From the NCBI RefSeq assembly GCF_030811555.1, contig NZ_JAUSQZ010000001.1, positions 6,073,241 through 6,137,240 of the forward strand: a stretch of DNA of 64,000 nt, given 5' to 3'. Position numbers and translations under genes: made by a program. Below, piece by piece: positions 29,193 to 64,000 of the stretch (positions are counted from its first letter, which is position 1; each line of letters opens with the position of its first letter). The stretch comes from Kineosporia succinea (GTDB lineage Bacteria > Actinomycetota > Actinomycetes > Actinomycetales > Kineosporiaceae). The notes under the pieces are model-generated. The model worked only from the letters and a program-made list of their open reading frames with translations. It was not told the origin of the DNA and did no database searches.

Positions 29193-30482
29193 ATGTCCGA
29201 ATTCCTGGGTCTGGCGGACCTGTCCCCGGGGGCCACCGAGCCTCCGGGGGCAGTGCTGGGCGAGATCCTCGCCGGACCCGAAACCGGTTGGCTGGAGGGC
29301 GAATGCGCCGAACCCGACGAGTGGAGCGCGGGCCGGGTCCTCGTGGTCCGGGAGCTCCGGTCGTCGATGTACCCGCTGCTGCGATCCTCCCGGGCGGTCG
29401 TCTGCGCCTTCGGGGGACCCGCCGGTCACATGTCGGCCGTCTGCCGGGCCAAGGGCATCACGGTGATCCGGATCCCCGAGGCCGACCTCGTGCGGATGCG
29501 CGGGACGGTACGGATCGACCGTTCCCGGGGCCTGATCGATCTCGGGTCGGCCCGTGGCTCCGCGCCGGGTGTTCCGGCCGACGACGTAAGCCGTTCGGCA
29601 CCACCGGGATCCACCTGCGCGGTCGTCGCGGGCGGGGAGGAGATCGACGCCGTCAACGAATCGGGGTGGGGATCGACGGTCGACCGGTTCTTCGTCCGCG
29701 AGGAGTTCCTCTGTCTCGAGGCCGGTCTCAGTCCGCTCGACCTGCTGGCGGCGGGTCCGGACGGGCAGGACCGGTACGCCCGCGAGATGGCGGCGATGAT
29801 TCTGGGCATGCGCTCGAAGTTGCAGCCGCACCAGAAGATCGTGTACCGCCTCCTGGATCTGCGCTCGGACGACGCGGCCGGCATCACCCGCACGGCCGCG
29901 GTCGGGGAGGAGGCGAATCCCGAACTCGGGCTCCACGGCACCCGCTGGATCGTCGAGACACCCGCCTACGTGGACGTGGTCAGGTCAGTGGTGCGCCGGC
30001 TGGCCGAGCAGGAGCCAGGCATCCACGACAGTCTCGCCCTGGCCGGCCCCTTCGTCGCCGACTGCCACGAATTCTCCCAGCTCGCGGCAGCTCTCGGCCT
30101 TCCCGAACGATGGACGGTGTCGGCGTTCGTGGAGACCCCGGCCGGTGTGTACGACGTGCCGGCGATCTGCCGCGCGGGGGCGGCGGAGGTGTTCATCGGG
30201 ACCAAGGACCTGGTGCAGCTCTTCCTGGCCGCCGATCGCGGGAACCATCGCGTGGCAGGCAGTTACAACACCCGTCACCCGGCGGTGATCGATGCGCTGG
30301 CGCGCGCCATCATGGCGTGCCAGAGCCTGGAGGTGCCGGTGCGGGTCTACAGTTTCGCGCGCGACCTGGACCACTACCTGAGCCGCCTGCCCCGGCCGAC
30401 GGGATACATCATGGACAGTGCGGAACTGATCGCGCGGCTCGGCTCCCACCCCGGCCGGCGGGCTGAGAGGTGCCTCAGATGA
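29193..30482 (+). CDS. PEP-utilising enzyme without ATP-grasp domain
   Basis: 429 residues. Residues about 45-110 form the swivelling phosphohistidine domain (FGGPAGHMSAV, His79). Residues 150-420 form the PEP/pyruvate-binding TIM barrel: LHGTRWIVETPAY, FVETPAGVYD and FIGTKDLVQLFLAADRGN, the last matching the SxGTNDLxQ motif. The ATP-grasp domain of PPDK/PEP synthase and the HPr-docking helices of PTS enzyme I are absent. Start ATG at 29193 with GGGGGAG upstream. It may transfer a phosphoryl group from PEP to an unknown partner. Its last 8 bases overlap the end of the convergent FAD protein gene. Confidence 0.8.
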   Translation: MSEFLGLADLSPGATEPPGAVLGEILAGPETGWLEGECAEPDEWSAGRVLVVRELRSSMYPLLRSSRAVVCAFGGPAGHMSAVCRAKGITVIRIPEADLVRMRGTVRIDRSRGLIDLGSARGSAPGVPADDVSRSAPPGSTCAVVAGGEEIDAVNESGWGSTVDRFFVREEFLCLEAGLSPLDLLAAGPDGQDRYAREMAAMILGMRSKLQPHQKIVYRLLDLRSDDAAGITRTAAVGEEANPELGLHGTRWIVETPAYVDVVRSVVRRLAEQEPGIHDSLALAGPFVADCHEFSQLAAALGLPERWTVSAFVETPAGVYDVPAICRAGAAEVFIGTKDLVQLFLAADRGNHRVAGSYNTRHPAVIDALARAIMACQSLEVPVRVYSFARDLDHYLSRLPRPTGYIMDSAELIARLGSHPGRRAERCLR

Positions 30483-32331
30483 CGGGTTCGAGGCCCAGGA
30501 TGCCGGTCAGGTCCTTCGGGGTGACGGACACGTCGCAGAGTGCCTGCAGGGCCTCCCGGCGGATCGCGACGGTGAGCAGGGGCCGGGTGGCACCCGGCGG
30601 CCAGGGCCGCAGGGCGAGGGAGTCGATGCAGGCCGCGAGGTCTGCCGACAGCGTCTCCCGATCGCCGCGTCCCTGCACGGACAGCCTGCGGATCTCCAGG
30701 TCACGCGCGCGCAGGGCCAGGTCGCCGGCAGGCGTGCCGGGGCGGGCGAAGAGGGCCTCGCGCACCTGCTCGACTCCCGGACCCGCAGCGGTTCGCGGCT
30801 CTTCGAGGGCGTCGAGAATGTCGACGACGACGGACAGCGAGTGGTTCTTGATGGCGGCCAGGTTCAGGGAGAACGCGCCGGAGCGGCCGTTGCGGATGAT
30901 CTCGTCACCCTCGCGCAGGCAACCGACCAGTGCGACCCGGTGGGCGGGCGTCCCGTCCCGGCGCACCGGATGGCCGTACTCGTCGACCTCGAGGCCCCGG
31001 CCGGTGCGCTCGTGCGGGACGGCTGTTCCGGCGGCCAGCAGGTTGCGCCACAGCGGGGAGCCGGCCTTCGTGTAGTCGGGCTGGCGGCCGAAGCTGTCCA
31101 CCACGAGGTCGCAGGCCATCTCGCGGGTCTGCCCGTCCCGGTGCACCAGGCGCACGACCAGGCCGTCGCCGGACGCCGGGCGGATGTCCTCGACCGTGCC
31201 GACGAGGCGGTGCACCTGCTCACCGGAGGCGACCGCGTCGTCCACCGGTGAGACGGCCTGACGCATCGCCCCCACGCGAAGCGTCGCGACAGCCGTACTG
31301 AACTCCTGGAGAAGGGATCTGAGCAGCGGCGTGGCCAGGTGGCTCAGGACGGCGGGGGTGTGCGGTTCCCACGCCTTGGCCACCCGCTCGGACACGATGG
31401 CCTCGGGCAGGTCCGGGTGGCTCGCGCGGGCCCGGGCACAGGCCGTGCGCCACTCGCGCCCGACGGCCTCCAGAAACCGCGAACGGGAGGCGAAGTCGGC
31501 GTCCGCGAAGGCCGGTGCCGGGAGCTCGATGACCTCGTGCGCGTGCTGCTCGGGGTAGGCCCGCAGCGAGGAGCCGGAGCCGGAGGTGAGGTAGATGTCG
31601 CCGGTGTGTCCGCGCCGGAGCAGCAGGGTCGTGGTGTCGTAGGCGCTGAGTACCGAGCCGACGATCAGGACCCGGGCACCGCTGGGCAGGTTCTCCAGGG
31701 TGCGCACGCCTCGGCGGGTGTACGGCTCCCGCAGATAGGCGGGGTGGTCACGCACACGCGCGGCGTACGCGGGCGTGCGCAGCTCGAGACCGGTGGCCAG
31801 GACGACGTAGTCGGCCCTCAGCGTGCGTTCCTCGCCGGCGGCCGACCCGGGCGGGAAAGCGCGGCCCGACACCCGGACCCCGGTGTCGTCGGGGACCAGG
31901 TCGTCGATCCGGCCGTGCACCTCGGTCAGCACGACGCCGGGAGCCGCGTCCCGCCGGGCCCGTTCGAGCCGCTGCTCCAGATAGTCCTGGAAGATGCGGC
32001 GCGGTGCCGGGCTGTGCTCGAGGAACTCCTGCTCACGCCATTCGGCCGGCCAGCCGGTGCGGTCGGCCTCGGTGTTGGCCCAGCGGATGAAGTCGAACGT
32101 GTCCTCTCGGAAGAGGGACATCCGACCCGCCTGGATGTTGAAGATATGGTTCCAGGGGTTGCCCTCCCGGTGGTACGCCGGGCCGGCGCTGCGGAGCTCG
32201 GGGCGCCGTTCCCAGATCTGCACCTCGACGGGAGCCCGGGCAGAACCGAGCAGCCGGACGGCCGTGGCCGTGCCGCCCAGGCCGCCTCCCACGACGACCA
32301 CCACCGAGGGGTGGGTGGGACCGGGACTCAT
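30475..32331 (-). CDS. FAD/NAD(P)-binding protein (PF13454-type)
   Basis: 618 residues. N-terminal dinucleotide site VVVVGGGLGGTATA (15-20 is GGGLGG), then NPWNHIFNIQAGRMS, a second Rossmann motif VLIVGSVLSAYDTT, and a late segment ALVGCLREGDEIIRNGRSGAFSLNLAAIKNH. The family comprises uncharacterised flavoproteins related to ornithine N-monooxygenases; some act in natural-product pathways. RBS GGAGCAG precedes the ATG. Divergent from the unbV-like gene across a 20-bp palindrome, which suggests shared control with the cluster. Confidence 0.82.
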   Translation of the reverse strand: MSPGPTHPSVVVVVGGGLGGTATAVRLLGSARAPVEVQIWERRPELRSAGPAYHREGNPWNHIFNIQAGRMSLFREDTFDFIRWANTEADRTGWPAEWREQEFLEHSPAPRRIFQDYLEQRLERARRDAAPGVVLTEVHGRIDDLVPDDTGVRVSGRAFPPGSAAGEERTLRADYVVLATGLELRTPAYAARVRDHPAYLREPYTRRGVRTLENLPSGARVLIVGSVLSAYDTTTLLLRRGHTGDIYLTSGSGSSLRAYPEQHAHEVIELPAPAFADADFASRSRFLEAVGREWRTACARARASHPDLPEAIVSERVAKAWEPHTPAVLSHLATPLLRSLLQEFSTAVATLRVGAMRQAVSPVDDAVASGEQVHRLVGTVEDIRPASGDGLVVRLVHRDGQTREMACDLVVDSFGRQPDYTKAGSPLWRNLLAAGTAVPHERTGRGLEVDEYGHPVRRDGTPAHRVALVGCLREGDEIIRNGRSGAFSLNLAAIKNHSLSVVVDILDALEEPRTAAGPGVEQVREALFARPGTPAGDLALRARDLEIRRLSVQGRGDRETLSADLAACIDSLALRPWPPGATRPLLTVAIRREALQALCDVSVTPKDLTGILGLEPVI

Positions 32332-32710: not shown

Positions 32711-34696
32711 ATGCCCCTGAAAGATCGCCTACGACGACTTGTTCCCGGAGTCGTGACCCTACTGGTGGCGGCCCTGATGTTCACGGGCGTCCAGGTGGGT
32801 CACGGGACTCCGTCGAGTGCCGCGGTGAGCGAAGGGTATTCGTTCAAGGGCCAGCCGCTCGCGATGCCGCCCGGCTACGACGACCAGCCCATGAACACCG
32901 TGCGCCGGGTCAATCCCGAGTACGAGAACATCAAGGCCTGGATCTCCTCCGTCGGCGCCAGCATCGCGATGAACGACCTTGTCGGGAACGGGCTTTCCGA
33001 CGGCGTCTGCGTCGTCGACACCCGCACCGACGCGGTCGTCGTCACCTACACCCCGACCGCGCCCGACGCAGACCGGTTCACGCCGTTCGTGCTGGATCCC
33101 GTCGCGCTGCCGATGGACGCGGCCATGGCCCCGACCGGCTGCACGCCCGGCGACTACAACGGCGACGGGCGGATGGACATCCTGGTCTCGTACTGGGGAC
33201 GCACACCGATCGTCTTCCTGGCGAAGTCCGGGGCCACGGAACTGAGCAACGCGGCCTACCACCCGGTCGAACTCGTACCTCACGAGTCGCCGGACGGCCG
33301 CTACCACGGGCCGCGGTGGAACACCGACGCGATCTACGTGGGTGACCTGGACGGCAGCGGGCACCCCTCGATCGTCGTCGGGAACTACTTCCCGGACTCC
33401 GACGTGCTCGACCCGAACGGGCTGAAGAACACCACGATGAACACGTCGCTCTCCAGCGCGGTCAACGCCGGGGGTGACCACGTGATGCAGTGGCTCGGCG
33501 GCACCTCGGGTGAGAAGCCGACGGTCTCGTACGTCGAGAACAAGAAGGCGATCCCGTACGCGGACGCCACCGGCTGGACGCTGGCCATCGCCGGTGCCGA
33601 GCTCACCGACAGCGGCCTGCCGGACCTCTACATCGCCAACGACTTCGGGCGCGACCACCTGCTGCACAACATCTCCACCCCCGGCAACATCCGGTTCAAG
33701 ACCGTGAAGGGGGAGCGGACCCCGACCACGCCCAAGTCGTTCGTGCTGGGCAAGGACTCCTTCAAGGGCATGGGGGTCGACTTCGCCGACATCAATGGCG
33801 AGGGCAAGTTCGACATCCTGGTCAGCAACATCGACCAGGCGTGGGGCCTGGAGGAGAGCAACTTCGTCTTCGTGAACAACAGCGAGAGCCGAGCCGACAT
33901 GGCCGATTCGCTGAGCAAGGGCGTGGCGCCCTTCACCCAGGAGGCGGCCGACTACGGACTGGCCTGGACCGGCTGGTGCTGGGACGTCAAGGCCGGCGAC
34001 TTCCTGAACAACGGCGACATGAGCGTCGTGCAGGCGACCGGCTTCGTCCAGGGCGAGACCGACCGGTGGGCCTGGCTGCAGGAGATGGCCATGATGAACG
34101 ACGTGCTGCTGAGCACGCCCAAGATGTGGCCGAAACTGACACCTGGTAGCGACATCTCGGGCCACAACGTGCTCGCCTTCTACGCCCGCTCGTCCAAGGA
34201 CGGGGCATACGTCAACATCAGCAAGGAACTGGGGATCACCGACGACACGCCCACCCGGGCGATCGCCACCGCCGACACGACGGGAACCGGCGCCCTCGAC
34301 TTCGCCGTCGCCCGGCAGTGGGGCCCGCCGGTCTTCTACGCCAACACGGCCACCGACCGGGGCAACGCCCTCGACCTGAACCTCTACCGGCCCAGCGTCG
34401 ACGAGGCGTCGGCCGGAAGCGGCCTGGCAGGCCTGGGAGCCCCGGCCTACAACGCCACCGTCACCGTGAAAACACCGTCGGGCACGCAGACCTCGCAGCT
34501 GGACGGCGGTGGTGGCCACAGCGGGTTCCGCAGCTTCGGGGTCCACTTCGGGCTCGGTGACCACTCCGGCGCGACGTCGGTGGAGGTGAAGTGGCGGGAC
34601 GTGGACGGCACCCTGCACCGCGAGACCACGCAGCTGGCCCCGGGCACGCACAACCTGATGCTCACCGACACGATCGAGGAGGTTTCCGGACGATGA
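32711..34696 (+). CDS. unbV: UnbV-like secreted protein (FG-GAP repeats plus ASPIC/UnbV domain)
   Basis: 661 residues. A Sec signal peptide (basic KDRLRR, then a hydrophobic stretch to about residue 28). Beta-propeller-type FG-GAP/VCBS repeats carry calcium-type loops NGDGRMD (near 152), DGSGHPS (near 214) and NGEGKFD (near 361). The ASPIC/UnbV domain is at about 577-655. UnbV is one of the accessory genes conserved with the enediyne PKS; its biochemical role is not settled. The ATG at 32711 has GGAGAAG just upstream; the frame is open further up but unsupported. Overlaps the unbU start by 4 bases. Confidence 0.85.
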   Translation: MPLKDRLRRLVPGVVTLLVAALMFTGVQVGHGTPSSAAVSEGYSFKGQPLAMPPGYDDQPMNTVRRVNPEYENIKAWISSVGASIAMNDLVGNGLSDGVCVVDTRTDAVVVTYTPTAPDADRFTPFVLDPVALPMDAAMAPTGCTPGDYNGDGRMDILVSYWGRTPIVFLAKSGATELSNAAYHPVELVPHESPDGRYHGPRWNTDAIYVGDLDGSGHPSIVVGNYFPDSDVLDPNGLKNTTMNTSLSSAVNAGGDHVMQWLGGTSGEKPTVSYVENKKAIPYADATGWTLAIAGAELTDSGLPDLYIANDFGRDHLLHNISTPGNIRFKTVKGERTPTTPKSFVLGKDSFKGMGVDFADINGEGKFDILVSNIDQAWGLEESNFVFVNNSESRADMADSLSKGVAPFTQEAADYGLAWTGWCWDVKAGDFLNNGDMSVVQATGFVQGETDRWAWLQEMAMMNDVLLSTPKMWPKLTPGSDISGHNVLAFYARSSKDGAYVNISKELGITDDTPTRAIATADTTGTGALDFAVARQWGPPVFYANTATDRGNALDLNLYRPSVDEASAGSGLAGLGAPAYNATVTVKTPSGTQTSQLDGGGGHSGFRSFGVHFGLGDHSGATSVEVKWRDVDGTLHRETTQLAPGTHNLMLTDTIEEVSGR

Positions 34697-35754
34697 CCAC
34701 GACCGCAGAACAGCAGGCCGCCGACAGCGCCGGAACGCAGCGACCATCAACTCCGGCACCCACGACGCAGCCCGGGCCGACGTCACCCTCCGGGCCGGCC
34801 ACCCCGCCGGGGCCCATCGCCGAGAAGAAGCCCGCCGACCCGCGCTACCTGGCCCTGCGTAACTTCGCGATCTCGATCAGCATCTTCAACATTCTCGGTT
34901 ACACCGTGCTGGGCTTCGAGCAGCCCTGGCTGTGGCCGATCATCTCGGTGCTGTTCGCCTACAGCGTCGAGATCGTGCTGGAGTACGTCAGCGCCTGGGC
35001 CCAGCAACGCGAGCCGCGGTTCCAGGGCAAGGGCGCGCGGGGGATGTACGAGTTCCTGCTGCCCTCGCACATCACCGCGCTGGCCGTGAACATGCTGCTC
35101 TACGCGAACGACCTGATTCTGCCGATCCTGTTCGGGGTCTTCGTCGGGGTCGCCGGCAAGCACGCCCTGCAGGCACCCATCAACGGGCGCATGCGGCACT
35201 TCATGAACCCGTCGAACTTCGGGATCGCCGCCACCCTGCTGTGTTTCGGGTCCTGGGTCAGCATCTCGCCGCCGTACATGTTCGTCGAGCACGCCAACAA
35301 CCTCTTCCGGCTCCTCGTCCCCATGCTCATCCTGACGTCCGGAACCGTGATCAACGCACTCCTGACCAAGCGGGTGGCGCTGATCATGGGCTGGGTGGGC
35401 GGGTTCGTGATCCAGGCCCTCATCCGCTGGGCCATCTGGGACATCTCGCTGTACTCGGCCCTCGGGCCGATCACCGGGGTGGCCTTCGTCCTGTTCACCA
35501 ACTACATGATCACCGACCCGGGCACGACCCCGACGAAGGCCCGGGCGCAGTTCATGTTCGGCGCGTCCGTGGCCGGGGTGTACGGCATCCTGATCGCGAT
35601 GAACGTCGTCTACACGCTCTTCTTCGCCACCGCGATCGTCTGCGGGCTGCGAGGTCTCGGCTGGTGGGCGGTGCACTGGCGGCGCACGTACGAGGCGCGC
35701 GCCGCCGCACCGCAGCCCGAGGCGCGTGAGGCGGTTCCCGCACCCGTGGCCTGA
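34693..35754 (+). CDS. unbU: UnbU-like membrane protein (RnfD/NqrB-related)
   Basis: 353 residues. A Pro/Thr-rich cytosolic N-terminus of about 45 residues, then roughly nine or ten membrane helices with RnfD/NQR2-type features (MNPSNFGIAATLL; TNYMITDPGTTPTKARAQ, cf. the flavin-Thr region of RnfD). UnbU is a conserved enediyne-cassette membrane protein proposed to take part in redox or transport; this is not proven. Translation is coupled to unbV (ATGA overlap). A 15-bp hairpin follows 18 bases after the stop. Confidence 0.85.
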   Translation: MTTTAEQQAADSAGTQRPSTPAPTTQPGPTSPSGPATPPGPIAEKKPADPRYLALRNFAISISIFNILGYTVLGFEQPWLWPIISVLFAYSVEIVLEYVSAWAQQREPRFQGKGARGMYEFLLPSHITALAVNMLLYANDLILPILFGVFVGVAGKHALQAPINGRMRHFMNPSNFGIAATLLCFGSWVSISPPYMFVEHANNLFRLLVPMLILTSGTVINALLTKRVALIMGWVGGFVIQALIRWAIWDISLYSALGPITGVAFVLFTNYMITDPGTTPTKARAQFMFGASVAGVYGILIAMNVVYTLFFATAIVCGLRGLGWWAVHWRRTYEARAAAPQPEAREAVPAPVA

Positions 35755-35771
35755 CCCGGGAACCTCCCGGT

Positions 35772-35808
35772 CGGTGAGCGTGGACCGTGGTTCGGTCCAC
35801 GCTCACCG
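35772..35808 (+). terminator. Hairpin terminator after unbVU
   Basis: Perfect 15-bp arms (35772-35786 and 35794-35808) with a 7-base loop, immediately downstream of unbU. It separates the unbVU unit from the DUF1702 gene, which must have its own promoter or be read through. Confidence 0.75.
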
Positions 35809-36003
35809 GCATGCCCGTCACCGCCGCCCGGCGAACGGGCACGCTCGAAGATGCACGGCCGCCGACACCACTGTCAGGCTGGTCGAGCCCGCGTCCTGCG
35901 CCCGTGACAATCCTGATCGGGGTCGCGAGCGGCATCCCACGGCCCGCTCGATCCGCGCCGTTCGATGCTCCTGTGTCCGCATGCAGCAGTAGGGAGATGC
36001 TTG

Positions 36004-36978
36004 ATGAGCACGAGCACGTGGGGCCGGTTACGCACGACCTTGCTCATGCCCGACCAGTCCGAGGTCACCTTCGCCCGCCGGGGATTCACCCCCGGTGAGC
36101 CGCAGGCCCAGAAGCGGCTGGAGGAGACGGGAGCGACCTTCCTGCACGGTCTGGAGCTGGCGCTGCAGAGCCGCCGGCCCTCGGACTTCACCGGGACCCT
36201 CGACCGTCTCGAGCCCCAGCTCCGCGGGTTCGCCTACGAGGGCGCCGGCATGGGCATGGCCATCGGCGACGCGGTCTCGGCGTTCCCCCGGCGTCAGTCG
36301 GCCGCCCTGGCCGCGGGGGCCGGTGCCGCCCACAAGTACATGCTCCAGGTCGGGGTCGGCTGGGCCATGGCCCGGGTGCCGCGGATGCTCTGGGGCCGGC
36401 TCGACCTGCACGACCCGCTGCTGCGCTGGCTGGCCCTGGACGGGTACGGCTTTCACGAGGCCTACTTCAGCACCGAGAAGTACGTGCGCCGTCAGGCCCC
36501 GATCCGGATGCGCCCGCCCTGGCCCGACCCCTCGGGTTACGCGCCCCGGGCCCTGGATCAGGGAGTGGGCCGGGCGTTGTGGTTCGTCTGCGGCGCCGAC
36601 GTGGAGCGGGCGGCGGCCCAGATCTCGTCGTTCGCCCCGTCGCGTCAGTCCGACCTCTGGGGCGGTCTCGGGTTGGCGGCCACCTACGCCGGTTACGTTC
36701 AGGGCGATCAGCTGGAGCGGCTGCGGGTGCTGGCGGGGCCGTACGAGCCCGACCTGGCGCAGGGATCGGCGTTCGCCGCCCAGGCCCGGCTGCTGGCCGG
36801 GCTGGTGGTCCCGCACACCTCGACGGCGGTGCGGGCCCTGTGCGGCACCACGGTCGAGGAGGCCGGCGCGCTGACCGACGAGGCGCTGCACGACCTCCCG
36901 GCGGACGGCCCGCGGGAGCCGGCGTTCGAGGTCTGGCGCCGCCGGATCAAGCAAGCGCTGCCGGTCGCCGCTCCCTGA
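36004..36978 (+). CDS. unbL: DUF1702 family protein, UnbL-like
   Basis: 324 residues of DUF1702, the family of the conserved enediyne protein UnbL: FLHGLELAL, a LRGFAYEGAGMGMAIGD block, the VGVGWAMARVPR helix, LALDGYGFHEAYF and GVGRALWFVCGADVERA. Soluble, function unknown; conserved in enediyne clusters. The ATG at 36004 follows AGGGAG. Codon 9 (36028-36030) is TTA, the rare Leu codon that makes many actinomycete secondary-metabolism genes depend on bldA tRNA. A second, diverged copy is at 41034. Confidence 0.83.
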   Translation: MSTSTWGRLRTTLLMPDQSEVTFARRGFTPGEPQAQKRLEETGATFLHGLELALQSRRPSDFTGTLDRLEPQLRGFAYEGAGMGMAIGDAVSAFPRRQSAALAAGAGAAHKYMLQVGVGWAMARVPRMLWGRLDLHDPLLRWLALDGYGFHEAYFSTEKYVRRQAPIRMRPPWPDPSGYAPRALDQGVGRALWFVCGADVERAAAQISSFAPSRQSDLWGGLGLAATYAGYVQGDQLERLRVLAGPYEPDLAQGSAFAAQARLLAGLVVPHTSTAVRALCGTTVEEAGALTDEALHDLPADGPREPAFEVWRRRIKQALPVAAP

Positions 36979-37086
36979 CGCCTGGTTCGCGCACGGACGC
37001 GTTGATGCGAGGAACGCCGGACCGGTTGCCCCGGTCCGGCGCACAGGATCAGGGACCCGGGCCCGGCGCGGTGGAGGAGAACGCTC

Positions 37087-38145
37087 ATGTGGCAGGTGCC
37101 GGTGCGAAAGATGCTGCGCGGCAAGTCGTTCGCCCAACTCCGGCACGTGGCGCCGGTGACCCGGGGCGCAGGCGTGGACCGCGTGTACCGCGAGATGGAG
37201 CAGGAGTTCGGGATCCTGGCGCCCCCGATGCTCCTGCACGCCTCCAGCCCGCCCGTGCTGTCGGCGGCGTGGAACCTGTTGCGGGAGACCCTTCTCGTGC
37301 CCCGGGAGGCCACCCGCGCGGAGAAGGAGACCGTGATGGTGACCGTCTCCGAGGCCAACCGCTGCCCCTACTGCGTCGAGGTGCACTCCGGCATGCTGAC
37401 CGGACTGCTCGGGCCACAGGCCCGGCCCGGCCGCCGGCCGGAGCGGGTGGACGCGCTGGCCCGCTGGGTGCAGGCGGGTCGTGATCCCGAAATCATTGCG
37501 GCGCAACCACTCTGGTTAGGTGCCCCCGTGGGTGAGCTGATCGCCGTGGTGACCATGATGGAGTACCTGAACCGCGTGGTGAGCGTCTTCCTGGGGGACA
37601 AGCCGCTGCCCCCGGGCGCGCCGCCGGTGGCCGCGAGGGTCGTCGGCCCGGTGCTGGCCCGGCTGCAGCTGCACGCCGAGCGCACCCCGCCGGTTCCGGG
37701 CCGGGCGCTCGACCTCCTGCCCGCCGCCGCGAACGATGCCGATCCCCGTGCCGACCTGGGCTGGGACCCGGGTGACGACGGGCTGACGGAGGCACTGCGT
37801 CGCGTGCGGGCGGCGATCGAGGCGGCGGGGGAGAGGTCCGTGCCGGTCGGGGTCCGCGAGTGCGTCCGGGACGTGGTCGCGCGCTGGAGCGGCGAGGCGC
37901 CGCCGCTGGGTCGCGCCTGGCTGACCTCGGCCGTGGACGGCCTGCCGGCCGCCGAGAGGGCCGCGGGGGAACTGGGCGTCCTCACGGCCCTGGCGGCCTA
38001 CCGGGTCGAGGACGCCACGGTCGCGGCCTTCCGCGCCGCCGGGGGTGACGACGCGGCGCTCGTCGAGCTCACCGCGTGGGCGAGCCTGACCGCGGCCTTC
38101 GAGATGGGCCGCCGCACCGCGTCGCGGCTGGGGCTGGGCGTCTGA
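37087..38145 (+). CDS. AhpD-like/carboxymuconolactone decarboxylase-family protein
   Basis: 352 residues. EANRCPYCVEVH (89-100) is the EX3CX2CX3H motif of AhpD-like alkylhydroperoxidases, with redox Cys93/Cys96 and His100. The protein is twice the usual 175 residues; the second half (after about 200) is helical and may be a degenerate second copy without the Cys pair. It may detoxify peroxides or radicals, or act as a redox step, in the cluster. GGAGGAG precedes the ATG. It contains a TTA codon at 37516-37518 (codon 144), like its upstream neighbour. Confidence 0.8.
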   Translation: MWQVPVRKMLRGKSFAQLRHVAPVTRGAGVDRVYREMEQEFGILAPPMLLHASSPPVLSAAWNLLRETLLVPREATRAEKETVMVTVSEANRCPYCVEVHSGMLTGLLGPQARPGRRPERVDALARWVQAGRDPEIIAAQPLWLGAPVGELIAVVTMMEYLNRVVSVFLGDKPLPPGAPPVAARVVGPVLARLQLHAERTPPVPGRALDLLPAAANDADPRADLGWDPGDDGLTEALRRVRAAIEAAGERSVPVGVRECVRDVVARWSGEAPPLGRAWLTSAVDGLPAAERAAGELGVLTALAAYRVEDATVAAFRAAGGDDAALVELTAWASLTAAFEMGRRTASRLGLGV

Positions 38146-38261
38146 GACCGGGCGTCGGCGGGCGCCGCTGAGAGGCCTGCGGGTTTTCGTCAAGGGGCGC
38201 CTGCTTGAGGACGCGCCGGTCACCCCGGGAGCGCGGGTCACCGCCCGGATCGGTCGGCTGG

Positions 38262-38660
38262 TGCGGTGGTCGGGCTGTGCGGTGCTCTCGGTGCGCGGTG
38301 CTCTCGCTGTGCGGCGGTCCGGGCCTGGTTTGGGCCTGGGCCGGTCCGGTCCGGTCCGGTCGTGGGCATTCCGGCTGTGTGCGGACCGGATCGCGAGAGG
38401 ACAGGCCCGTCTGGCGTTCTGCCCGGTCCGGCGATCTGCCCCGGCCGGACCGTGACGGGCTGCGTGTCGTCTGGTGCCCCGCCGTGGGTCCTCGGTGAGC
38501 CCCCGAGAGACCCCCCGAGAGCCCGCCGAGAGCCCGCCGAGAGCCCGCCGACAGCCCGCCCTGAGCCCGCCGCGAGCCCTTCGCGAGCCCGCCCTGAGCC
38601 TGCCGCGAGCCCCCGTGAGCCCTTCGTGAGCCCGCCCTGAGCCCGCTCTGAGAACCCCGT
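38262..38660. repeat. Cluster of short degenerate tandem repeats
   Basis: Two arrays. Near 38338-38360 the pentamer CCGGT is repeated about four times. From about 38497 to 38655 there are some 15 degenerate copies of a 9-12-base unit, consensus GAGCCCGCC(G), with spacing variants. Strongly skewed strand composition (C-rich top strand). Confidence 0.75.
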
Positions 38661-39112
38661 GAGCCTTCTGCCGCCCCGGGTCGTCCTGGTGCCGCGAGCG
38701 TCGGGCTCTGTCTGCCTGAACCCCGCCCGGGCGACTCCTTTTCGGCCCTCCCGTCGCGGTCCGCCGAGCGTCCGGCGTCCCGGCTCCGTGGCTTCGCGCG
38801 CCGGCCGGACCTCAGGGTGCGGTGTGACTGATTGCTGTCCGGACAACCGATCTGGCGCGAGCGGCGACCGCCACCCCTCGTCACGAATCAGAATCCCGCT
38901 CTGCGCTCTGGGGATGCCCGCGCCCGGGGTACGGCCGCTGCAGACCCAAAGCGCCCTTGCCGTAGATGATCTCGGCTCTCTGGCGGCCGGTGCGAGAGAG
39001 TCGATCATGGCGCGTCCGGGTGAAGGTCAAACCGGCTCTGCGGTAATGAATTACGCAACATCGGGGAAACCTATTCTCTGACTTTCCTTTAAAATAACGC
39101 CTGCTCGCCAAG

Positions 39113-39128
39113 TTGTTCCGTCGAACAA
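39113..39128. promoter_or_regulatory. Palindrome upstream of the AraC-type gene
   Basis: TTGTTCCGTCGAACAA: 6-bp arms around CGTC, 36 bases before the chosen ATG. Candidate autoregulatory operator. Confidence 0.55.
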
Positions 39129-39163
39129 TGGTGACCTTTCCGTGGTGCGCTTACAGTCAATCC

Positions 39164-39673
39164 ATGAGCATCCTGGTCGAGGGGCGCGAAAGTATCGGGT
39201 GGGCCGAGGAAAACAATGTTCACCGGCGCTTCGCTCGTCATGAATTGGCGGTACTCCGCTCCATCAACCTGCTGCGGGCCAATCTTTCCGATCAGCCGAC
39301 CGTGGCGATGATGGCGGAATGGGCCTTCTTCAGTAAATTCCATTACACCCGTGTTTTTCAGCGCATGATCGGAATGGCGCCCGGGCAGTTCCTGTCCGAG
39401 TACCGGATGGTGCTGGCCGAGGAACTGCTCGACGAGACCGATCTGAGTTTCACCGAGATCACCTATCGGGTGGGGTATGCCAGCGTCGGCACGTTCAGCT
39501 CGCGGTTCAAGAAGATCGTGGGCGTGCCACCGACGACCTTCCGGCAGCGACGCCGGCGGCCCTGCCCGCCCGAAGAGGACTGTCCCCGGGGCGAAGTCCG
39601 TCCCGAGGCCCGGATGGTCCTGATGGCGATCGAGAACGCCAAGAGCGTGGCGGACGCCGACCTGCCGTTCTGA
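39164..39673 (+). CDS. AraC-family regulator, DNA-binding domain only
   Basis: 169 residues. Two helix-turn-helix motifs of the AraC family: first about residues 43-75 (VAMMAEWAFFSKFHYTRVFQ), second about 92-120 (FTEITYRVGYASVGTFSSRF) ending in GVPPTTFR. There is no ligand or dimerisation domain, only a 35-residue N-terminus and a 45-residue tail. The start is uncertain: 39164 has a weak ribosome site, and a possible ATG at 39128 overlaps the palindrome. Likely a pathway regulator of the cluster. Confidence 0.82.
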   Translation: MSILVEGRESIGWAEENNVHRRFARHELAVLRSINLLRANLSDQPTVAMMAEWAFFSKFHYTRVFQRMIGMAPGQFLSEYRMVLAEELLDETDLSFTEITYRVGYASVGTFSSRFKKIVGVPPTTFRQRRRRPCPPEEDCPRGEVRPEARMVLMAIENAKSVADADLPF

Positions 39674-39716
39674 GCCCGGTCCCTGCCGTCCCGGTGGGAG
39701 TCTCAGGGGGAGCCCC

Positions 39717-40694
39717 TCAGGAGGGGCCGGGCAGGGCGGTCGCCTCGTCGGCGTCGGCGGCACGGGCCTCGAGGTCGCGGGCCATGATCATCCAGGCCCG
39801 GGCCGCCTGCCGGATCAGCCGCACCGTGGCGTCCAGGCGGTGGGCGGGTACCCCGAGGGTGAGGCGGTTGCTGTCGTCACCCGTCAGCACCATTCCCCGC
39901 AGCCGGGCCAGCAGTTCGCGACCACCGGCCGTTCGGCACATCGCCGGATCCCGCACCAGCCGCTCCAGCAGGATGCTGGGCAGGGCGGCGGCGGGCAGGT
40001 CGTCCATCGCGCCGGTCACCATCCGCAGCTCCGGTGAGGCGGGCACCGGCTGCGGGTCGCCCGAGCTCAGGAGTTCCCGGTGCACGCGGTGGGCGGTGCC
40101 GAGGGATATGCCCGCGGCCGCGGCGACCTGGCGCTGAGTCGCCTCCGGGTTCGCCAGGAACAGTTCCCGGGCCACGAGTTTCCCGGCCTCCGTCGACAAC
40201 GGGCGTCGCCGGCCGTCGGCCCCTCGGCGCACGACCTCGCCCGCCGGCGTGTTCGACTGGCCCGTTGGAACGGTTGAACAGGTGCGCACCCGGGCCACCG
40301 TTCCCGGGGAGACCCCGGCGAGGGTGGCCACGTGCCGGTTCGACAGGTCGGGACTCAGCTCCAGCACCCGGGCCACCGCCTGCCGGCGGTCGGCCCTGGT
40401 CAGCGGCAGCCCGTGCCGGGCGTTCGCGCTCAGGGACAGGCTCAGGAGATCCAGCTCGCTGCCGCTGACCAGCTTCGCGGTGATGGTGTGCCGTCCGGCG
40501 TGCAGCGCGGCCGCCACCCGGTGGGCTCCGTCGATCAGCTCGAGCGATGCCCGGTTCAGCAGGATGGGGGGAATGTCGTCCAGGACCTCGACGAGGCGTT
40601 CGACGTGCTGCTGGTCGAGGCCACCCAGGCGCAGTCCCGGGCCCGGACGGATCGCCTCGAGAGGAACATCGTCCTCCACCACGGCGCTGGGCAT
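39717..40694 (-). CDS. StrR-like ParB/Srx-fold transcriptional activator
   Basis: 325 residues. Residues 10-90 are a ParB/sulfiredoxin-like domain with IDGAHR (54-59). An HTH follows at about 119-137 (RHVATLAGVSPGTVARVR) and a second one at about 190-206 (VAAAAGISLGTAHRVH). This is the layout of StrR, the pathway-specific activator of streptomycin, and its homologues in many glycosylated or aromatic antibiotic clusters. A StrR-box-like sequence lies within its own coding region at 40251-40279. Convergent with the AraC gene, divergent from the second DUF1702 gene. Confidence 0.87.
   Translation of the reverse strand: MPSAVVEDDVPLEAIRPGPGLRLGGLDQQHVERLVEVLDDIPPILLNRASLELIDGAHRVAAALHAGRHTITAKLVSGSELDLLSLSLSANARHGLPLTRADRRQAVARVLELSPDLSNRHVATLAGVSPGTVARVRTCSTVPTGQSNTPAGEVVRRGADGRRRPLSTEAGKLVARELFLANPEATQRQVAAAAGISLGTAHRVHRELLSSGDPQPVPASPELRMVTGAMDDLPAAALPSILLERLVRDPAMCRTAGGRELLARLRGMVLTGDDSNRLTLGVPAHRLDATVRLIRQAARAWMIMARDLEARAADADEATALPGPS
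40251..40279. promoter_or_regulatory. StrR-box-like element inside the StrR-like gene
   Basis: GTTCGACTG, then 11 bases, then CGGTTGAAC. The published StrR consensus is GTTCGACTG-N11-CAGTCGAAC; the left half is exact and the right half has two mismatches. It overlaps codons about 139-148 of the regulator, just after its first HTH. Confidence 0.6.
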
Positions 40695-41033
40695 GGATGG
40701 CTCACGTCCCCCCTGCTAGTCCCGACGTGAGGACCAGTCCTTCGCCGTCGCGAAGAAGGACTGATGCTCGTGACCCTAGGTCGTCGGCCGCGGTCCCCCT
40801 ACTTTTCGCGTGCCGAACGTCGTCTGCGACCTCACGATAGGTCACTTTGCACACAATGGACCCATTCCTTCACGCGTGTCACGCCCATCGTCGGATTTGC
40901 GCACGATCGTTCCTGGTGACCGTGAGCGTCCGTGAGCACGCCAGGAGGTGGTCGCACCGGGCCCGGCACCGGACATTGGTCGCAGGTGGGTGCGCCCGTC
41001 GCGTACCTGGTTGTCGCGGAGGGAGTCCGGCCG
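40695..41033. promoter_or_regulatory. Divergent region between the StrR-like gene and the second DUF1702 gene
   Basis: 339 bases, no gene supported. Includes an imperfect hairpin at 40735-40763 (CAGTCCTTCGC opposite GCGAAGAAGGACTG) in the leader of the StrR-like gene. Promoters for both directions are expected here. An alternative, earlier GTG for the DUF1702 gene is at 40932. Confidence 0.45.
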
Positions 41034-42089
41034 GTGCATGCACTGATGGCAAGGATCCGGTGGGGGCTCCTCGGGGTCCCCGAACGGGAGGTCGATCCCG
41101 AGCGGAGGGGTTTCGCCGAGTGGGAGGCGGGCCCGTCCCGCTGCGAGGACGTCGGGCGCTCGTTCCTCACCGGGTACCGGGCGGGTCTGGTCGAGCCGGG
41201 GGCGGTGAGCGCCGTCCGGTCGCTGGCGGACCTGGACGACGATCTGCGGGGTTTCGCCATGGAGGGCCTGGGCATGGCCGCGGCCCTGCGGGACGTTCTC
41301 CGGCCGGGCGGCCGGCACTTCCGCGACCTGCTGGCCTGTGCCGGTGAGCGGCACGTGTACATGATCCACGTCGGCCTCGGCTGGGCCCTGGCCCGCACCC
41401 CGCGCCCGCTGTGGCCCTCGTTGAGCCGGCTGGACCCGGTGCACGCGGCCCTGGTCCTGGACGGGTACGGGTTCCACGAGGTGTTCTTCCGGACCCGCCG
41501 GGTCTTCGACGAGCTCGGGGTCGGCTTTCCCCTGTCCGCCTGGCCCGGCCGTCCGCAGGACGCGCACCAGCACCTGATGCAGGGCGTCGGCCGGGGCCTG
41601 TGGTTCGTGGCCGGTGGCGGCCCGGCCCGGCTGGCGGACTACGTCGGCCGTTTCGCGCCCTCGGCGGCCGGTTCCCTGTGGGCCGGCGTCGGCCTGGCCG
41701 CCGCCTACGCCGGGGGCCGCGACGAGGCCGGCCTGCGCGAACTGCGGGCCACCAGCGGTGAGTACAGCCCGTGGCTGCGGCAGGGCGCGACCTTCGCCGT
41801 CGGCGCCCGGGACCGCGCCGGAGCCAGCGTGGAACACACCCACCTCGCCGCCCGCGTCCTGTGCGACGGGACGGTGGAGACCGTGCACGCCCTGGCCCGG
41901 GCCCATCTGCCCCGCTCCGGGGTGGTGGACGCGGGGGACTGGTCGGCCGCGGCCCGCTGGCGCTGCGAGGTGGCCGGGTACTACGCCACCCACGCCCCCG
42001 ACCGCGACGGCCACGACGGCCACGACGGCCACGAACCCGTCGACCGAGACGTCGACGCGGTGGGCGCCCGGCTGGTGGGTGCCCGGTGA
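41034..42089 (+). CDS. DUF1702 family protein, second copy
   Basis: 351 residues, clearly paralogous to the 324-residue DUF1702 protein at 36004: FAMEGLGMAAALRDV, HVGLGWALARTPRPLW, LVLDGYGFHEVFF, GVGRGLWFVAGGGPARLA. I chose the GTG at 41034 because GGAGGGAG lies 8 bases upstream and the alignment with the paralogue begins just after it. The C-terminus carries a short Asp-His-Gly repeat (DRDGHDGHDGHE) that could bind metal. The stop overlaps the P450 start (GTGA), so the two are translated together. Function unknown; enediyne-associated family. Confidence 0.8.
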   Translation: MHALMARIRWGLLGVPEREVDPERRGFAEWEAGPSRCEDVGRSFLTGYRAGLVEPGAVSAVRSLADLDDDLRGFAMEGLGMAAALRDVLRPGGRHFRDLLACAGERHVYMIHVGLGWALARTPRPLWPSLSRLDPVHAALVLDGYGFHEVFFRTRRVFDELGVGFPLSAWPGRPQDAHQHLMQGVGRGLWFVAGGGPARLADYVGRFAPSAAGSLWAGVGLAAAYAGGRDEAGLRELRATSGEYSPWLRQGATFAVGARDRAGASVEHTHLAARVLCDGTVETVHALARAHLPRSGVVDAGDWSAAARWRCEVAGYYATHAPDRDGHDGHDGHEPVDRDVDAVGARLVGAR

Positions 42090-43294
42090 GCGGCTGGGCG
42101 CACCTCGGCCCGGCGCAGACCGCCCGGACCCTGGTCGTGATGATGCGGGACAAGCTCGCGACCCTCACCCGGCTGAGCCTCGAGCACCCCGAGGGCGTGG
42201 TGGTCCGGCTGCCCCGGCGCCGGCTGATCGTGCTCAGCGACCCGCAGCAGGTGCGGCAGCTGCTGGTCGACGAGGCGGACAAGTACGCGAAGGGCCTGGG
42301 CCAGGCCGAGTCCGGGCGCTGGCTCGGGCACGGGGTGCTGGTCGCGCACGGCACCGAGTGGAGCGACCAGCGCACCCCGGTCGCGAGCCGGCTGGCCGCC
42401 CGCCGCGTGCAGCGCCTGGGCCCGCAGGTCGACGAGCTGGCCCGGGCCAGCGTGGCGGCCTGGGCCGGGCCGGAGTGGACGGACCTGGACCCCCGTCACC
42501 ACGTGGCCCAGTACACGCTCGACTGCCTGGGCCTGGCCATGGGTTTCACCGCTCCCCGCGCCGACGAGGTGGTGCCCTCGTTCGACCGGATCCAGGACCA
42601 GATCATGTTCGAGACCATCACCCAGCAGCTCGTGCCGACCTTCGCGCGTCCGTTCGCCTCCCGCCGCGCCCGCGCCGACCAGGAGCTTCTGCTGGAGGCG
42701 GCCCGCCGCGCCCTGGCCACCGGCGACACCCCCGACGCGGCCTGGGCGACCCCGGACCGGCTGCTCACCCTGCTGCTGGCCGGCTACGAGACGACGGCGG
42801 CCACGATCGCGTGGGCCCTGATGTACCTGAGCCGCCGCCCGGAGATCCAGCGCGCGCTGGCCCGCCCGCCGGAGGACCCCGCCGCCGTCTCCCTCACCGC
42901 GGTCTTCCGGGAGGTGACGCGGCTGCGCCCACCGGTCTGGCTGATCAGCCGGCGGGCACTGACCTCGCACCGGATCGGCACCGAGCGGGTGCACCGGGGC
43001 GACGACGTGGTGGTCTGCGTCCACGCCCTGCACCACGACCCGGCCTGGAGCCGCGAGGGCAGGTTCGAGCCCGGGCGCTCGCAGAGCGGGCGGCGCCTGG
43101 ACTTCGGGCAGGGACCGCGGGCCTGTCCCGGGGGCGCGCTGGCCGACCTCGAGGCGGCCACCTGGCTGCGCCGGGCCTGCCAGGAACTGGAGTTCGACCT
43201 GGTGCCCGGGGTGGTCCCGGATCCCGTGGCCCGGATGTCGCAGGCTCCCGGGCCGTTCACCGTCCGGGTCCGGGCGCGCCGTCCGGCCGCCTGA
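42086..43294 (+). CDS. Cytochrome P450
   Basis: 402 residues. I-helix AGYETT (232-237), ExxR as EVTR (276-279) and heme motif FGQGPRACPGG with the thiolate Cys347. The HGTEWSDQR and LISRR wording is closer to the multi-substrate CYP102/CYP4-like bacterial P450s than to CYP107. Hydroxylation or another oxidation of a pathway intermediate is likely. Coupled to the DUF1702 gene by a GTGA overlap. A hairpin terminator follows the stop. Confidence 0.9.
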   Translation: MSGWAHLGPAQTARTLVVMMRDKLATLTRLSLEHPEGVVVRLPRRRLIVLSDPQQVRQLLVDEADKYAKGLGQAESGRWLGHGVLVAHGTEWSDQRTPVASRLAARRVQRLGPQVDELARASVAAWAGPEWTDLDPRHHVAQYTLDCLGLAMGFTAPRADEVVPSFDRIQDQIMFETITQQLVPTFARPFASRRARADQELLLEAARRALATGDTPDAAWATPDRLLTLLLAGYETTAATIAWALMYLSRRPEIQRALARPPEDPAAVSLTAVFREVTRLRPPVWLISRRALTSHRIGTERVHRGDDVVVCVHALHHDPAWSREGRFEPGRSQSGRRLDFGQGPRACPGGALADLEAATWLRRACQELEFDLVPGVVPDPVARMSQAPGPFTVRVRARRPAA

Positions 43295-43369: not shown

Positions 43370-44365
43370 TCAGGCCGCGGCCAGTTCGACGACGGACATG
43401 AAGGAGCGCCCCGGAACGGGGTGCACGGCCCGGACGCCCAGGCCCGCCTTCGCGCCCAGGGCCGCGATCGCGTCCAGACCCCGTTCGCGTCCTCCCATGT
43501 ACACCATCATCCGCAGGTCCATCGCGGTGTCCGGGGCCTCTCCTCCGGCCCCGATCGCCTCCACGACCATCACGCGGCCCCGTGCCCCGGCCGCGTCGGC
43601 GCAGCCGGTCAGCAGCGCGACCGCCGCCTCGTCCGACCAGTCGTGCAGGACCGCGGACAGCAGGTAGGCCCCGGCCCCGGCCGGGAGCGGGTCGAAGAAG
43701 CTTCCCGCGACCACGTCGGCCCGCCCCTCCAGCCCCCGCTCGAGGAACGTCCGGCGGGCCTGGGCGGCGGGCCCCGGCAGGTCGACCAGGGTGCCCCGCA
43801 GCCCGGGGTGAGCCGTCAGCAGGTCGGCCAGCAGGGTGCCGTTGCCGCCACCCACGTCGACCACGTGCCGCAGCGCCCCCCAGTCCAGGCTCTGCGCCAG
43901 CCCCCGCACGTCGGTGCGGGTGTGCCGCGCCATCAGGGCGTCGAACGAGCGGGCCAGGTGCGGGTCGTGATCGAGGTCCTCCCAGAACGTCCGCCCGTTC
44001 CGGACCGGGTAGGCCGGTTCCCCGGTCCGGACCGAGTGCAGGAGGTCGACGAAGCTCAGATCGCCCCGCCCGACCGCCCCGGCGACGTCGAGCCAGTCCC
44101 GGGAACGGTTCTCCTGCAGTTCTTCCCCCAGGGCGGTGAGGCGGTAGGCGCCCTCGTCCCGTTCCAGCAGGCCGGTCGTCACCAGGTGGTCCAGCAGCCG
44201 CCCGAGCGCGTCCGGGTCGGCGTCCACCTGCCGGGCCAGCCGCTGGGCCGTGGCCGGGCCGGCCGCGAGCCGGTCGGCCAGGCCCAGGGTGGCCGCCACC
44301 CGGATCGCCATCGGGGTCGCCAGATCGGCCAGGGACCGCACCCCGGCGCGCCTGTTCGCATCCAT
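43370..44365 (-). CDS. SAM-dependent O-methyltransferase
   Basis: 331 residues, plant-caffeate/DnrK-like O-methyltransferase family. N-terminal dimerisation winged helix (about 1-95), SAM loop VDVGGGNG (169-176), and HDW with the probable catalytic base His241. Length and domain order match NcsB1, which O-methylates the naphthoic acid of neocarzinostatin. Here it most likely methylates a phenol on the aryl acid made by the local PKS (inference). Single gene, divergent from the reductase/P450 pair. Confidence 0.88.
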   Translation of the reverse strand: MDANRRAGVRSLADLATPMAIRVAATLGLADRLAAGPATAQRLARQVDADPDALGRLLDHLVTTGLLERDEGAYRLTALGEELQENRSRDWLDVAGAVGRGDLSFVDLLHSVRTGEPAYPVRNGRTFWEDLDHDPHLARSFDALMARHTRTDVRGLAQSLDWGALRHVVDVGGGNGTLLADLLTAHPGLRGTLVDLPGPAAQARRTFLERGLEGRADVVAGSFFDPLPAGAGAYLLSAVLHDWSDEAAVALLTGCADAAGARGRVMVVEAIGAGGEAPDTAMDLRMMVYMGGRERGLDAIAALGAKAGLGVRAVHPVPGRSFMSVVELAAA

Positions 44366-44550: not shown

Positions 44551-45543
44551 ATGGGCCCGGGCAGCATCGGGACGAAGGTCGGGACGATGGACGGGACGAA
44601 GGCGAGTCTGAGGGTGCGGTCCAGGACCCTGGTCGCCCGGGACGTCGTGGCCCTGGAACTGGAGGCCGTGACCGGCGCACGGCTGCCGGACTGGACCCCC
44701 GGCGCCCACATCGAACTGGAACTGCCCGGCGGCCTGGTCCGCCCCTACTCGCTGTGCGGCGACCGGCACGACGCGGGCCGGTACCGCATCGGGGTCCGCC
44801 GCGAACCGGCCGGCCGGGGCGGTTCGGCCTACGTCCACGACCGGCTCGACGTCGGCAGCGAGGTCGCCGCGTCCGCTCCCCGCAACCGGTTCCCCCTGAT
44901 CCCCGCGGTGCGCTACCGCTTCGTGGCGGGGGGCATCGGCATCACGCCGCTGCTGCCGATGATCTATCAGGCGCAGTGCACCGGGGTGCCCTGGGACCTG
45001 CTCTACCGGGGCCGGGCGCGCGCGGGGATGCCGTTCCTGGACGAGCTGGCCACCTACGGCGACCGGGTCACCGTCAGCGCCGGGGACGAGCACGCCCGCC
45101 CGGACGTCGCCGCGTGGATCGGGGCGGCCGGCCCCGACGCCCTCGGGGAACACGTCTACGTCTGCGGCCCGGCCCCGCTGATCGACGCCGCGCGCGCCGC
45201 GACCGCCGGGCGCCCGGCCGGCCTGTTCCACAGCGAGCGTTTCGTGGCCCGGGCGCAGGAGTCGTCCGGGGGCCCGGACACGTTCGAGGTGGTCCTGGCC
45301 CGCCGGGGGCGGACGGTCACCGTCGGCCCCGGCGTCTCGGTCCTGGACGCGGTGCGCGCGGCGGGCGCGGAGGTGATGTCGTCGTGCGGGCAGGGCGTCT
45401 GCGGCACCTGCGAGACCGTCGTGCTGGAGGGGCGTCCGCATCATCGTGACTCGGTGCTCGAGGACGACGAGCGCGAGGAGTCGGGCCTGATGTATCCCTG
45501 CGTCTCGCGCTCGCACGGCCGCCGCCTGGTGCTGAACCTCTGA
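44551..45543 (+). CDS. Ferredoxin-reductase-type flavoprotein, PDR/VanB family
   Basis: 330 residues in three parts: a flavin barrel with RPYSLCG (about 64-70), an NAD domain with GGIGITPLLPM, and a C-terminal plant-type [2Fe-2S] domain with Cys279, Cys284, Cys287 and Cys317. It moves electrons from NAD(P)H to an oxygenase in one polypeptide, like the vanillate demethylase reductase. GGGAGGAG precedes the ATG at 44551. The stop overlaps the start of the next P450 (TGATG), strong evidence that this is its redox partner. Confidence 0.9.
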   Translation: MGPGSIGTKVGTMDGTKASLRVRSRTLVARDVVALELEAVTGARLPDWTPGAHIELELPGGLVRPYSLCGDRHDAGRYRIGVRREPAGRGGSAYVHDRLDVGSEVAASAPRNRFPLIPAVRYRFVAGGIGITPLLPMIYQAQCTGVPWDLLYRGRARAGMPFLDELATYGDRVTVSAGDEHARPDVAAWIGAAGPDALGEHVYVCGPAPLIDAARAATAGRPAGLFHSERFVARAQESSGGPDTFEVVLARRGRTVTVGPGVSVLDAVRAAGAEVMSSCGQGVCGTCETVVLEGRPHHRDSVLEDDEREESGLMYPCVSRSHGRRLVLNL

Positions 45544-63429: not shown

Positions 63430-64000
63430 ATGGACCAGCGGTACCCGGGACTCAGCCCGGATCAGATCCTGACCCTCGAAGCGTTCGCCGACACCGTGAT
63501 TCCCGGCCGGCGGCGCAGTGAGGACGACGTGGCGATCAGCGGGGTGCACGACACCCCGGGCGCGGTCGAGGCGGGGGCCCTGGACGTGCTCACCGACCCG
63601 GCCGCCGGACTCTCCGACGGGATCGGGGAGATGGCCGACCTGCTGCACGAGCGGGTGACCGAACTGATTCCGGCCGAACAGGTTCCGTCCCCGTCCGTGG
63701 TGGACGGCCGGGAGGTCCCGGTCTTCGTGCGGCTCACCTACGAGCAGCGCCGCCTGGTGGTCGCCGCGCTCACCGAGTCGTCGTACCCCGAACGCGAGAT
63801 CTGGTTCCTGGTGGCGCTGTTCGCGTACATGGCCTACGACAGCGCGCCGCACCTGGACACCGCCAAGGCCGTGCGGGACGGGCATCCGGGGCTCCTGCAG
63901 CTCGGTTTCGACCAGCCCGGCGACGACGGCCTCTGGCGCAACGACAAGCCCGGGTACGGCCGCCCGACCGCCCGGCCCCGGCCGGGGACCGACGAGAGAG
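63430..64000 (+). CDS. DUF5987-like protein (gluconate dehydrogenase subunit 3-like), cut by the right edge
   Basis: At least 190 residues; the frame is still open at the window end. LTLEAFADTVIPGRR, DTPGAVEAGALDVL and LTYEQRRLVV give the pattern of small partner subunits of GMC-type oxidoreductases (gluconate 2-dehydrogenase subunit 3-like; I recall it as DUF5987). No obvious twin-arginine signal. Enediyne clusters contain a conserved small protein next to an FAD oxidoreductase, and this could be that pair's first member (inference from memory). A GMC oxidoreductase gene is predicted just outside the window. Confidence 0.7.
   Translation, partial: MDQRYPGLSPDQILTLEAFADTVIPGRRRSEDDVAISGVHDTPGAVEAGALDVLTDPAAGLSDGIGEMADLLHERVTELIPAEQVPSPSVVDGREVPVFVRLTYEQRRLVVAALTESSYPEREIWFLVALFAYMAYDSAPHLDTAKAVRDGHPGLLQLGFDQPGDDGLWRNDKPGYGRPTARPRPGTDER

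Follow-up and report, generated by a model that had tools for sequence, protein, structure and literature searches.

Accessory genes in the window

We analysed a stretch of 64,000 bases from Kineosporia succinea (the window; C1:6073241-6137240), which lies on a single contig (C1, NZ_JAUSQZ010000001.1) of 8,065,021 bases that contains the whole genome. It encodes UnbV, UnbU and two DUF1702 proteins, a gene set of an already known kind that belongs to enediynes, a class of DNA-cutting antibiotics. Comparison loci (L numbers) are the best 80 of 571 confirmed stretches from a scan of named genomes with an alignment of enediyne polyketide synthases (PKSE); records very near the genome studied here were possibly left out. 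The four genes, in window positions, are:

32711..34696, + strand: UnbV, an FG-GAP/ASPIC protein with an N-terminal signal-like stretch (PF07593, PF13517)
34693..35754, + strand: UnbU, an RnfD-like membrane protein
36004..36978, + strand: DUF1702-1, UnbL/E3-type (PF08012, 397.9 bits), which groups with Actinomadura L132 and L092
41034..42089, + strand: DUF1702-2, a diverged extra copy (PF08012, 273.7 bits)

An earlier note, made from the letters of the window, had named this set, and all four genes lie where it placed them. UnbV matches PF07593 (51.4 bits, cut-off 23.4) and FG-GAP_3 (61.6 bits) and is the only PF07593 match in the genome, with none in 14 control genomes; its start at 32711 is in frame in the open reading frame, and family scans and trees used a start at 32753. 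UnbU alone matched no Pfam family at E ≤ 0.001 (PF03116, NQR2_RnfD_RnfE, reached E 0.044). As 35 of 45 aligned UnbU proteins match PF03116 at E ≤ 0.1 (best 2.2e-7), the likeness to RnfD holds as a remote relationship. Genome searches found a single copy of UnbU and three of DUF1702 (cut-off 25 bits), the third just outside the window.

UnbV and UnbU homologues each occur in 60 of the 80 PKSE loci, within the flanks taken in. DUF1702 was matched in 25 of 394 genomes of the same class, the present one included (24 over the cut-off), and in none of the 14 control genomes. The earlier note had proposed a phylogeny against known enediyne clusters, and in our trees UnbV, UnbU and DUF1702-1 cluster with copies from other PKSE loci, not apart from them. 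Loci that combine PKSE, UnbV, UnbU and DUF1702 homologues were also seen outside Actinomycetota, in cyanobacteria (L112, L117 and L120), Methylococcales (L131), Planctomycetota (L139), Chlorobiota (L149) and Phyllobacteriaceae (L161).

Core genes beyond the right edge

Neither a PKSE nor a hot-dog thioesterase is in the gene list of the window, as the earlier note had observed. A genome-wide ketosynthase search gave 15 matches; the only one inside the window is a 1747-residue type I polyketide synthase (PKS2, 50798-56041) that is not a PKSE, and another belongs to an open frame of 2014 residues at C1:6143784 (+), 6.5 kb past the right edge. The 77 kb taken in on the right begin with genes for DUF5987, a GMC oxidoreductase, DUF2505, a mycothiol-isomerase-like protein, a thioesterase, a flavin reductase and an SgcJ homologue, followed by a DinB/mycothiol-transferase-like protein, DUF1702-3, PKSE, an FAD-binding monooxygenase-like protein and an epoxide hydrolase. 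The main features, in contig positions, are:

C1:6137251-6138846: GMC oxidoreductase, a type found in 31 of 80 PKSE loci
C1:6140332-6140772, + strand: hot-dog thioesterase (E10-type), starting 3.1 kb past base 64000
C1:6141372-6141770, - strand: SgcJ homologue, above the NCBIfam SgcJ/EcaC cut-off and matching 4i4k (SgcJ)
C1:6142487-6143497, - strand: DUF1702-3, the third DUF1702
C1:6143778-6149720, + strand: PKSE, 1980 amino acids
C1:6151142-6152329, + strand: epoxide hydrolase 2, nearest in the PDB to 4i19/4qa9

The best PDB match of the thioesterase is 4i4j ('ACP-polyene thioesterase', 215 bits), followed by CalE7 (201) and DynE7 (129.5). Pfam reports KS, AT, KR and DH domains in the PKSE and no ACP or PPTase domain; aligned with 11 relatives, the protein keeps KS C215/H348/H387, AT S656, an LHLSS ACP site (986-990), DH H1496 and a CDLEPV PPTase-like motif, so that Pfam and motifs together give the order KS-AT-ACP-KR-DH-PPTase. 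Over its KS-AT part, none of the 96 other rows compared (L077 among them, which is not a PKSE) shares more than 58% identity with it, which makes the cluster a candidate entry for enediyne lists. PKSE, thioesterase, SgcJ homologue, three DUF1702 genes, UnbV and UnbU all lie within 44 kb.

The E10-type thioesterase is thus joined by DUF1702, UnbV and UnbU, which we take to be E3, E4 and E5. According to a 2016 survey (PMC5181780), E3, E4, E5, E and E10 are common to all known enediynes, and E2 is found only in 9-membered ones. Because the PKSE and thioesterase sit to the right of the window, the first of two options in the earlier note, core genes beyond base 64000, is the right one. This is an ordinary enediyne cluster of about 50 kb, and re-use of the set outside an enediyne pathway does not apply here; the apparent paradox of enediyne accessory genes without an enediyne synthase arose simply because the core lies past the window edge. 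We consider it very probable that the window genes form the left, accessory portion of a complete enediyne cluster; its enediyne is most likely 9-membered and bears an acyl group of naphthoate or salicylate type, which may be halogenated.

Remaining genes of the locus

The other genes, from the probable left edge of the cluster to the end of the window, are:

29253..30482, + strand: PEP-utilizer mobile and PEP-binding domain protein, probable left edge (PF02896, PF00391); one of 80 loci, L138 of Saccharothrix carnea, has a 41% homologue near its PKSE
30475..32331, - strand: FAD/NAD(P)-binding oxidoreductase (PF13454); homologues near PKSE in L138 (46%) and L136 (53%), 2 of 80 loci
37087..38145, + strand: carboxymuconolactone-decarboxylase-like protein (CMD; PF02627); homologue in 32 of 80 PKSE loci
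39113..39673, + strand: AraC-type regulator (PF12833)
39717..40694, - strand: HTH regulator (PF13412); homologue in 6 of 80 PKSE loci
42086..43294, + strand: cytochrome P450 (a) (PF00067)
43370..44365, - strand: O-methyltransferase; best solved relative 3i53, 379 bits (next, 248)
44551..46793, + strand: ferredoxin-reductase-like protein and P450 (b) (family scan)
47035..48414, + strand: MFS exporter (PF07690)
49594..50760, - strand: epoxide hydrolase 1 (PF06441); PKSE locus L106 of Asanoa siamensis has a 62% homologue
50798..56041, - strand: PKS2, KS-AT-DH-KR-ACP type I (domain scan)
56340..58025, + strand: aryl acid ligase, CoA or AMP (PF00501); the top-scoring named model, 2,3-dihydroxybenzoate-AMP ligase, gives 507 bits, short of its 724-bit cut-off
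58044..59609, + strand: flavin-dependent halogenase (PF04820, 471.8 bits); 75% identical to one beside a PKS2 relative in Amycolatopsis thailandensis (L191)
61861..63111, - strand: cytochrome P450 (c) (family scan)
63430..64000, + strand: DUF5987 protein (PF19449), crossing the window edge to C1:6137254; homologue in 33 of 80 PKSE loci

Beside the MFS exporter, genes for a DUF1905 protein and a glyoxalase/bleomycin-resistance-like protein (48476-49198) are possible self-resistance genes.

A probable aromatic-acid module

To judge from its domains, PKS2 is probably iterative and would serve to make an aromatic acid. The nearest solved relative of the O-methyltransferase, by far, is 3i53, which we take to be NcsB1; that of epoxide hydrolase 2 is 4i19/4qa9 (744 bits over 386 residues; next, 482). 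Against the NcsB, NcsB1, NcsB2 and NcsB3 set of naphthoate-bearing (NCS-type) enediynes, the methyltransferase is matched through 3i53, and the synthase, ligase and P450 are of the right kinds, likened by kind only. Given the genes of the module and these two nearest relatives, the acyl group is likely to be a naphthoate or a methylsalicylate.

All 26 genomes in which PKS2 relatives were sought gave some polyketide synthase match. Among the matches listed, full-length relatives of more than 45% identity occur in at least five places in at least four genomes; four are in Amycolatopsis (61-63%). One A. thailandensis relative stands beside a ligase (57%) and a halogenase (75%), and a second has a methyltransferase (57%), a ligase and an SgcJ homologue as neighbours; the two relatives are on short contigs that are not the contig of the PKSE found there. 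The A. coloradensis relative, with ligase and methyltransferase, is on an 844,625-base contig, and the two PKSE loci of that strain are on others. By these placements, the module can also stand away from a PKSE. A relative of 47% identity in Actinoalloteichus caeruleus is separated from the PKSE there by about 36 kb.

Ring size

Initial trees held 133 DUF1702, 73 UnbV and 97 KS-AT rows, after low-coverage or low-score matches were dropped. DUF1702-3 falls into a clade of 40 rows (support 100) with the gene of CB02414 (L105) and, again with that gene, into one of 11 of 39 rows in a second tree (100/100). CB02414 is a predicted producer of a 9-membered enediyne in the 2016 survey (PMC5181780), which also names the R3 gene as a marker of 10-membered enediynes. 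As the CB02414 gene is in this clade and DUF1702 genes occur in pairs (two in 26 of 80 loci), we infer that the clade is E2, the marker of 9-membered enediynes; through DUF1702-3, the cluster would have its E2 gene.

A mosaic cassette

Mosaic trees were built from the same 23 hand-picked loci for each protein; nearer PKSE kin were left out for lack of UnbV in the flanks (L138, L090, L098 and L104) or a partial UnbV (L089). UnbV of the window groups with those of Actinospica, Streptomyces HPF1205 and five others (8 rows, 100/99), and the PKSE KS-AT with those of Saccharothrix, Amycolatopsis and others (8 rows, 100/99). Approximately unbiased (AU) tests reject UnbV in the group of the PKSE (p 3.5e-44), the PKSE in the group of UnbV (p 0.004) and UnbU in the group of the PKSE (p 4.2e-8); support for grouping UnbU with the kin of UnbV is only 72/88. 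Since a common grouping is rejected, the cassette is, on phylogenetic grounds, a mosaic of UnbV/UnbU and PKSE from different enediyne lineages. In the DUF1702 tree, DUF1702-1 joins two genes from Actinomadura (97/87) in a group that appears to fall apart from the main E3 clade.

Acquisition of UnbV/UnbU from a lineage other than that of the PKSE would account for the 35-38 kb that separate them from it. Such separation is not rare: where both flanks span 9 kb or more (61 loci), 50 loci have UnbV in them and 11 do not. The 2016 survey (PMC5181780) likewise has cases of E5 or E10 located away from E. The mosaic offers a natural experiment on whether one enediyne lineage can work with the UnbV/UnbU of another. 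Other discordant loci were seen: L074, L075 (G283, G391) and L094 (Nocardiopsis sp. ATB16-24) have a PKSE in the larger clade of the one studied here and UnbV in a distant clade.

DUF1702-2 overlaps the following P450 (a) by 4 bases. Its branch is very long (2.1), leaving its place in the tree and its origin unsettled; 23 columns stay invariant in the 50-member family alignment with it included, so it does not look broken. Three DUF1702 genes in the flanks were found in only one of the 80 loci, Lentzea L123. The mosaic cassette and this spare DUF1702 are the points of interest at the locus. It is conceivable, although we think it unlikely, that a modular cassette (UnbV/UnbU of one lineage with the PKSE of another) and a fast-evolved DUF1702-2 that adds, with its overlapping P450, a core step unknown in known clusters make a new type of non-chromoprotein enediyne.

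Proposed pathway and alternative explanations

The PKSE would make a polyene, which the thioesterase would release; according to PMC8725005, co-expression of the two yields a polyene (heptaene). UnbV, UnbU and the E3-type DUF1702 may then turn the polyene toward the enediyne core, and the E2-type DUF1702, flavin reductase and GMC oxidoreductase may help to finish a 9-membered core. An epoxide hydrolase would open an epoxide to a diol, and PKS2, methyltransferase, P450s, halogenase and ligase would make and attach the aromatic acid.

The second option of the earlier note was that the accessory proteins (UnbV, UnbU and DUF1702) are re-used in a pathway without an enediyne. The 64-kb window has no PKSE or thioesterase, and in four other genomes with DUF1702 neither UnbU nor a full-length PKSE was matched, but at this locus the idea is refuted by the PKSE, thioesterase and SgcJ homologue 3-13 kb past the window, and we give it practically no credence. 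Two abutting clusters, one for an aromatic polyketide in the window and one for an enediyne on the right, with UnbV, UnbU and UnbL as a stranded remnant, would accord with the separate contigs of the PKS2 relatives in A. coloradensis and A. thailandensis and with the differing histories of UnbV/UnbU and PKSE. However, the searches turned up no second UnbV or UnbU in the genome and both genes have open frames, gene types common at PKSE loci (CMD, DUF5987 and GMC oxidoreductase) flank PKS2 on both sides, and the A. caeruleus relative is near a PKSE; we regard this arrangement as improbable. The long branches of PKSE and DUF1702-2 could suggest a degenerate cluster that makes nothing, but the core reading frames are open, the PKSE motifs are kept and the invariant DUF1702 columns persist despite DUF1702-2, which renders decay highly improbable.

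Several points weigh against a complete, 9-membered, acylated enediyne cluster of mosaic origin. The E2 identity of the DUF1702-3 clade is our own inference, and in Phytohabitans flavus (L124), placed in the 9-membered PKSE clade by PMC7692728, the one DUF1702 seen within 10 kb of the PKSE is of E3 type. No PF00960 apoprotein over the cut-off was found in the genome; the highest score, 19.1 bits, came from a frame of 2799 residues that holds several such matches. An apoprotein is not required for a 9-membered enediyne, as only 7 of 21 predicted 9-membered clusters have one in the 2016 survey (PMC5181780). The aromatic acid is not settled between naphthoate and methylsalicylate: PKS2 is likened to NcsB/MdpB by kind and not by sequence, and the 6-methylsalicylate synthase, CoA ligase and halogenase reported for the amycolamycin (acm) cluster in a review (PMC8037709) leave both in play. 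The cluster has no known product. For the mosaic, the two groups of the AU tests were picked after the first trees, and some PKSE rows have long branches (window, 1.08; L162, 1.04).

Apparent use of DUF1702 without an enediyne

The re-use proposed in the earlier note is real, but in other genomes. G330, G055, G131 and G315 have DUF1702 without a UnbU match; their best PKSE matches reach 191-237 bits, within residues ~137-961 of 1980 (control G161, 1570 bits over residues 3-1895). Such genes offer a way to ask about the role of DUF1702 by itself. In G330 (L077:122-13619; G330:C13:101001-121000), four tandem DUF1702 genes directly follow a non-PKSE KS-AT-DH-KR-ACP synthase (1919 amino acids), with a type II thioesterase, a halogenase-like FAD protein, an FAD monooxygenase-like protein and an Na/H exchanger; this polyketide cluster seems to use DUF1702 without an enediyne.

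A lone DUF1702 lies near glycosyltransferase, methyltransferase, ferredoxin and dehydrogenase genes in G055, and the neighbours of the DUF1702 gene in G131 have similar N-termini. Similar blocks with a lone DUF1702 occur at L082:5910-12703 (by family scan: glycosyltransferase, methyltransferases, PNPOx-like protein, ferredoxin and alcohol dehydrogenase), L083:4019-12111 and L085:6686-13539; this type groups in the tree with DUF1702 of L153, L144 and L154.

Comparison with known systems

The nearest UnbV (65-69%) and close UnbU (62-70%) proteins are in Actinospica durhamensis (L168), Streptomyces sp. HPF1205 (L102) and G161; UnbU identity reaches 71% at two Actinomadura loci. The PKSE of L168 and L102 are in a different clade from the one described here, and that of G161 is 50% identical to it (pairwise, outside the trees).

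With the neocarzinostatin (NCS) cluster, the locus shares a PKSE cassette, an O-methyltransferase nearest 3i53, an aryl ligase, an aromatic-type synthase and an epoxide hydrolase nearest 4i19/4qa9. It differs in having a halogenase and in lacking a PF00960 apoprotein over the cut-off, which NCS and C-1027 have; nor did a scan of 40 proteins hit any glycosyltransferase family. The absent apoprotein and the aromatic-acid module would fit N1999A2, a 'non-protein enediyne antibiotic similar to neocarzinostatin' by a title in the reference list of PMC10381858; from this title alone, the link is a guess. The acm cluster, as described in PMC8037709, encodes a glycosyltransferase and an NRPS A-PCP protein besides its aminosugar genes, families absent from the 40 proteins scanned; its E and E2-E11 genes, aromatic-acid synthase, ligase and halogenase are matched by the enediyne genes, PKS2, ligase and halogenase of the K. 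succinea cluster.

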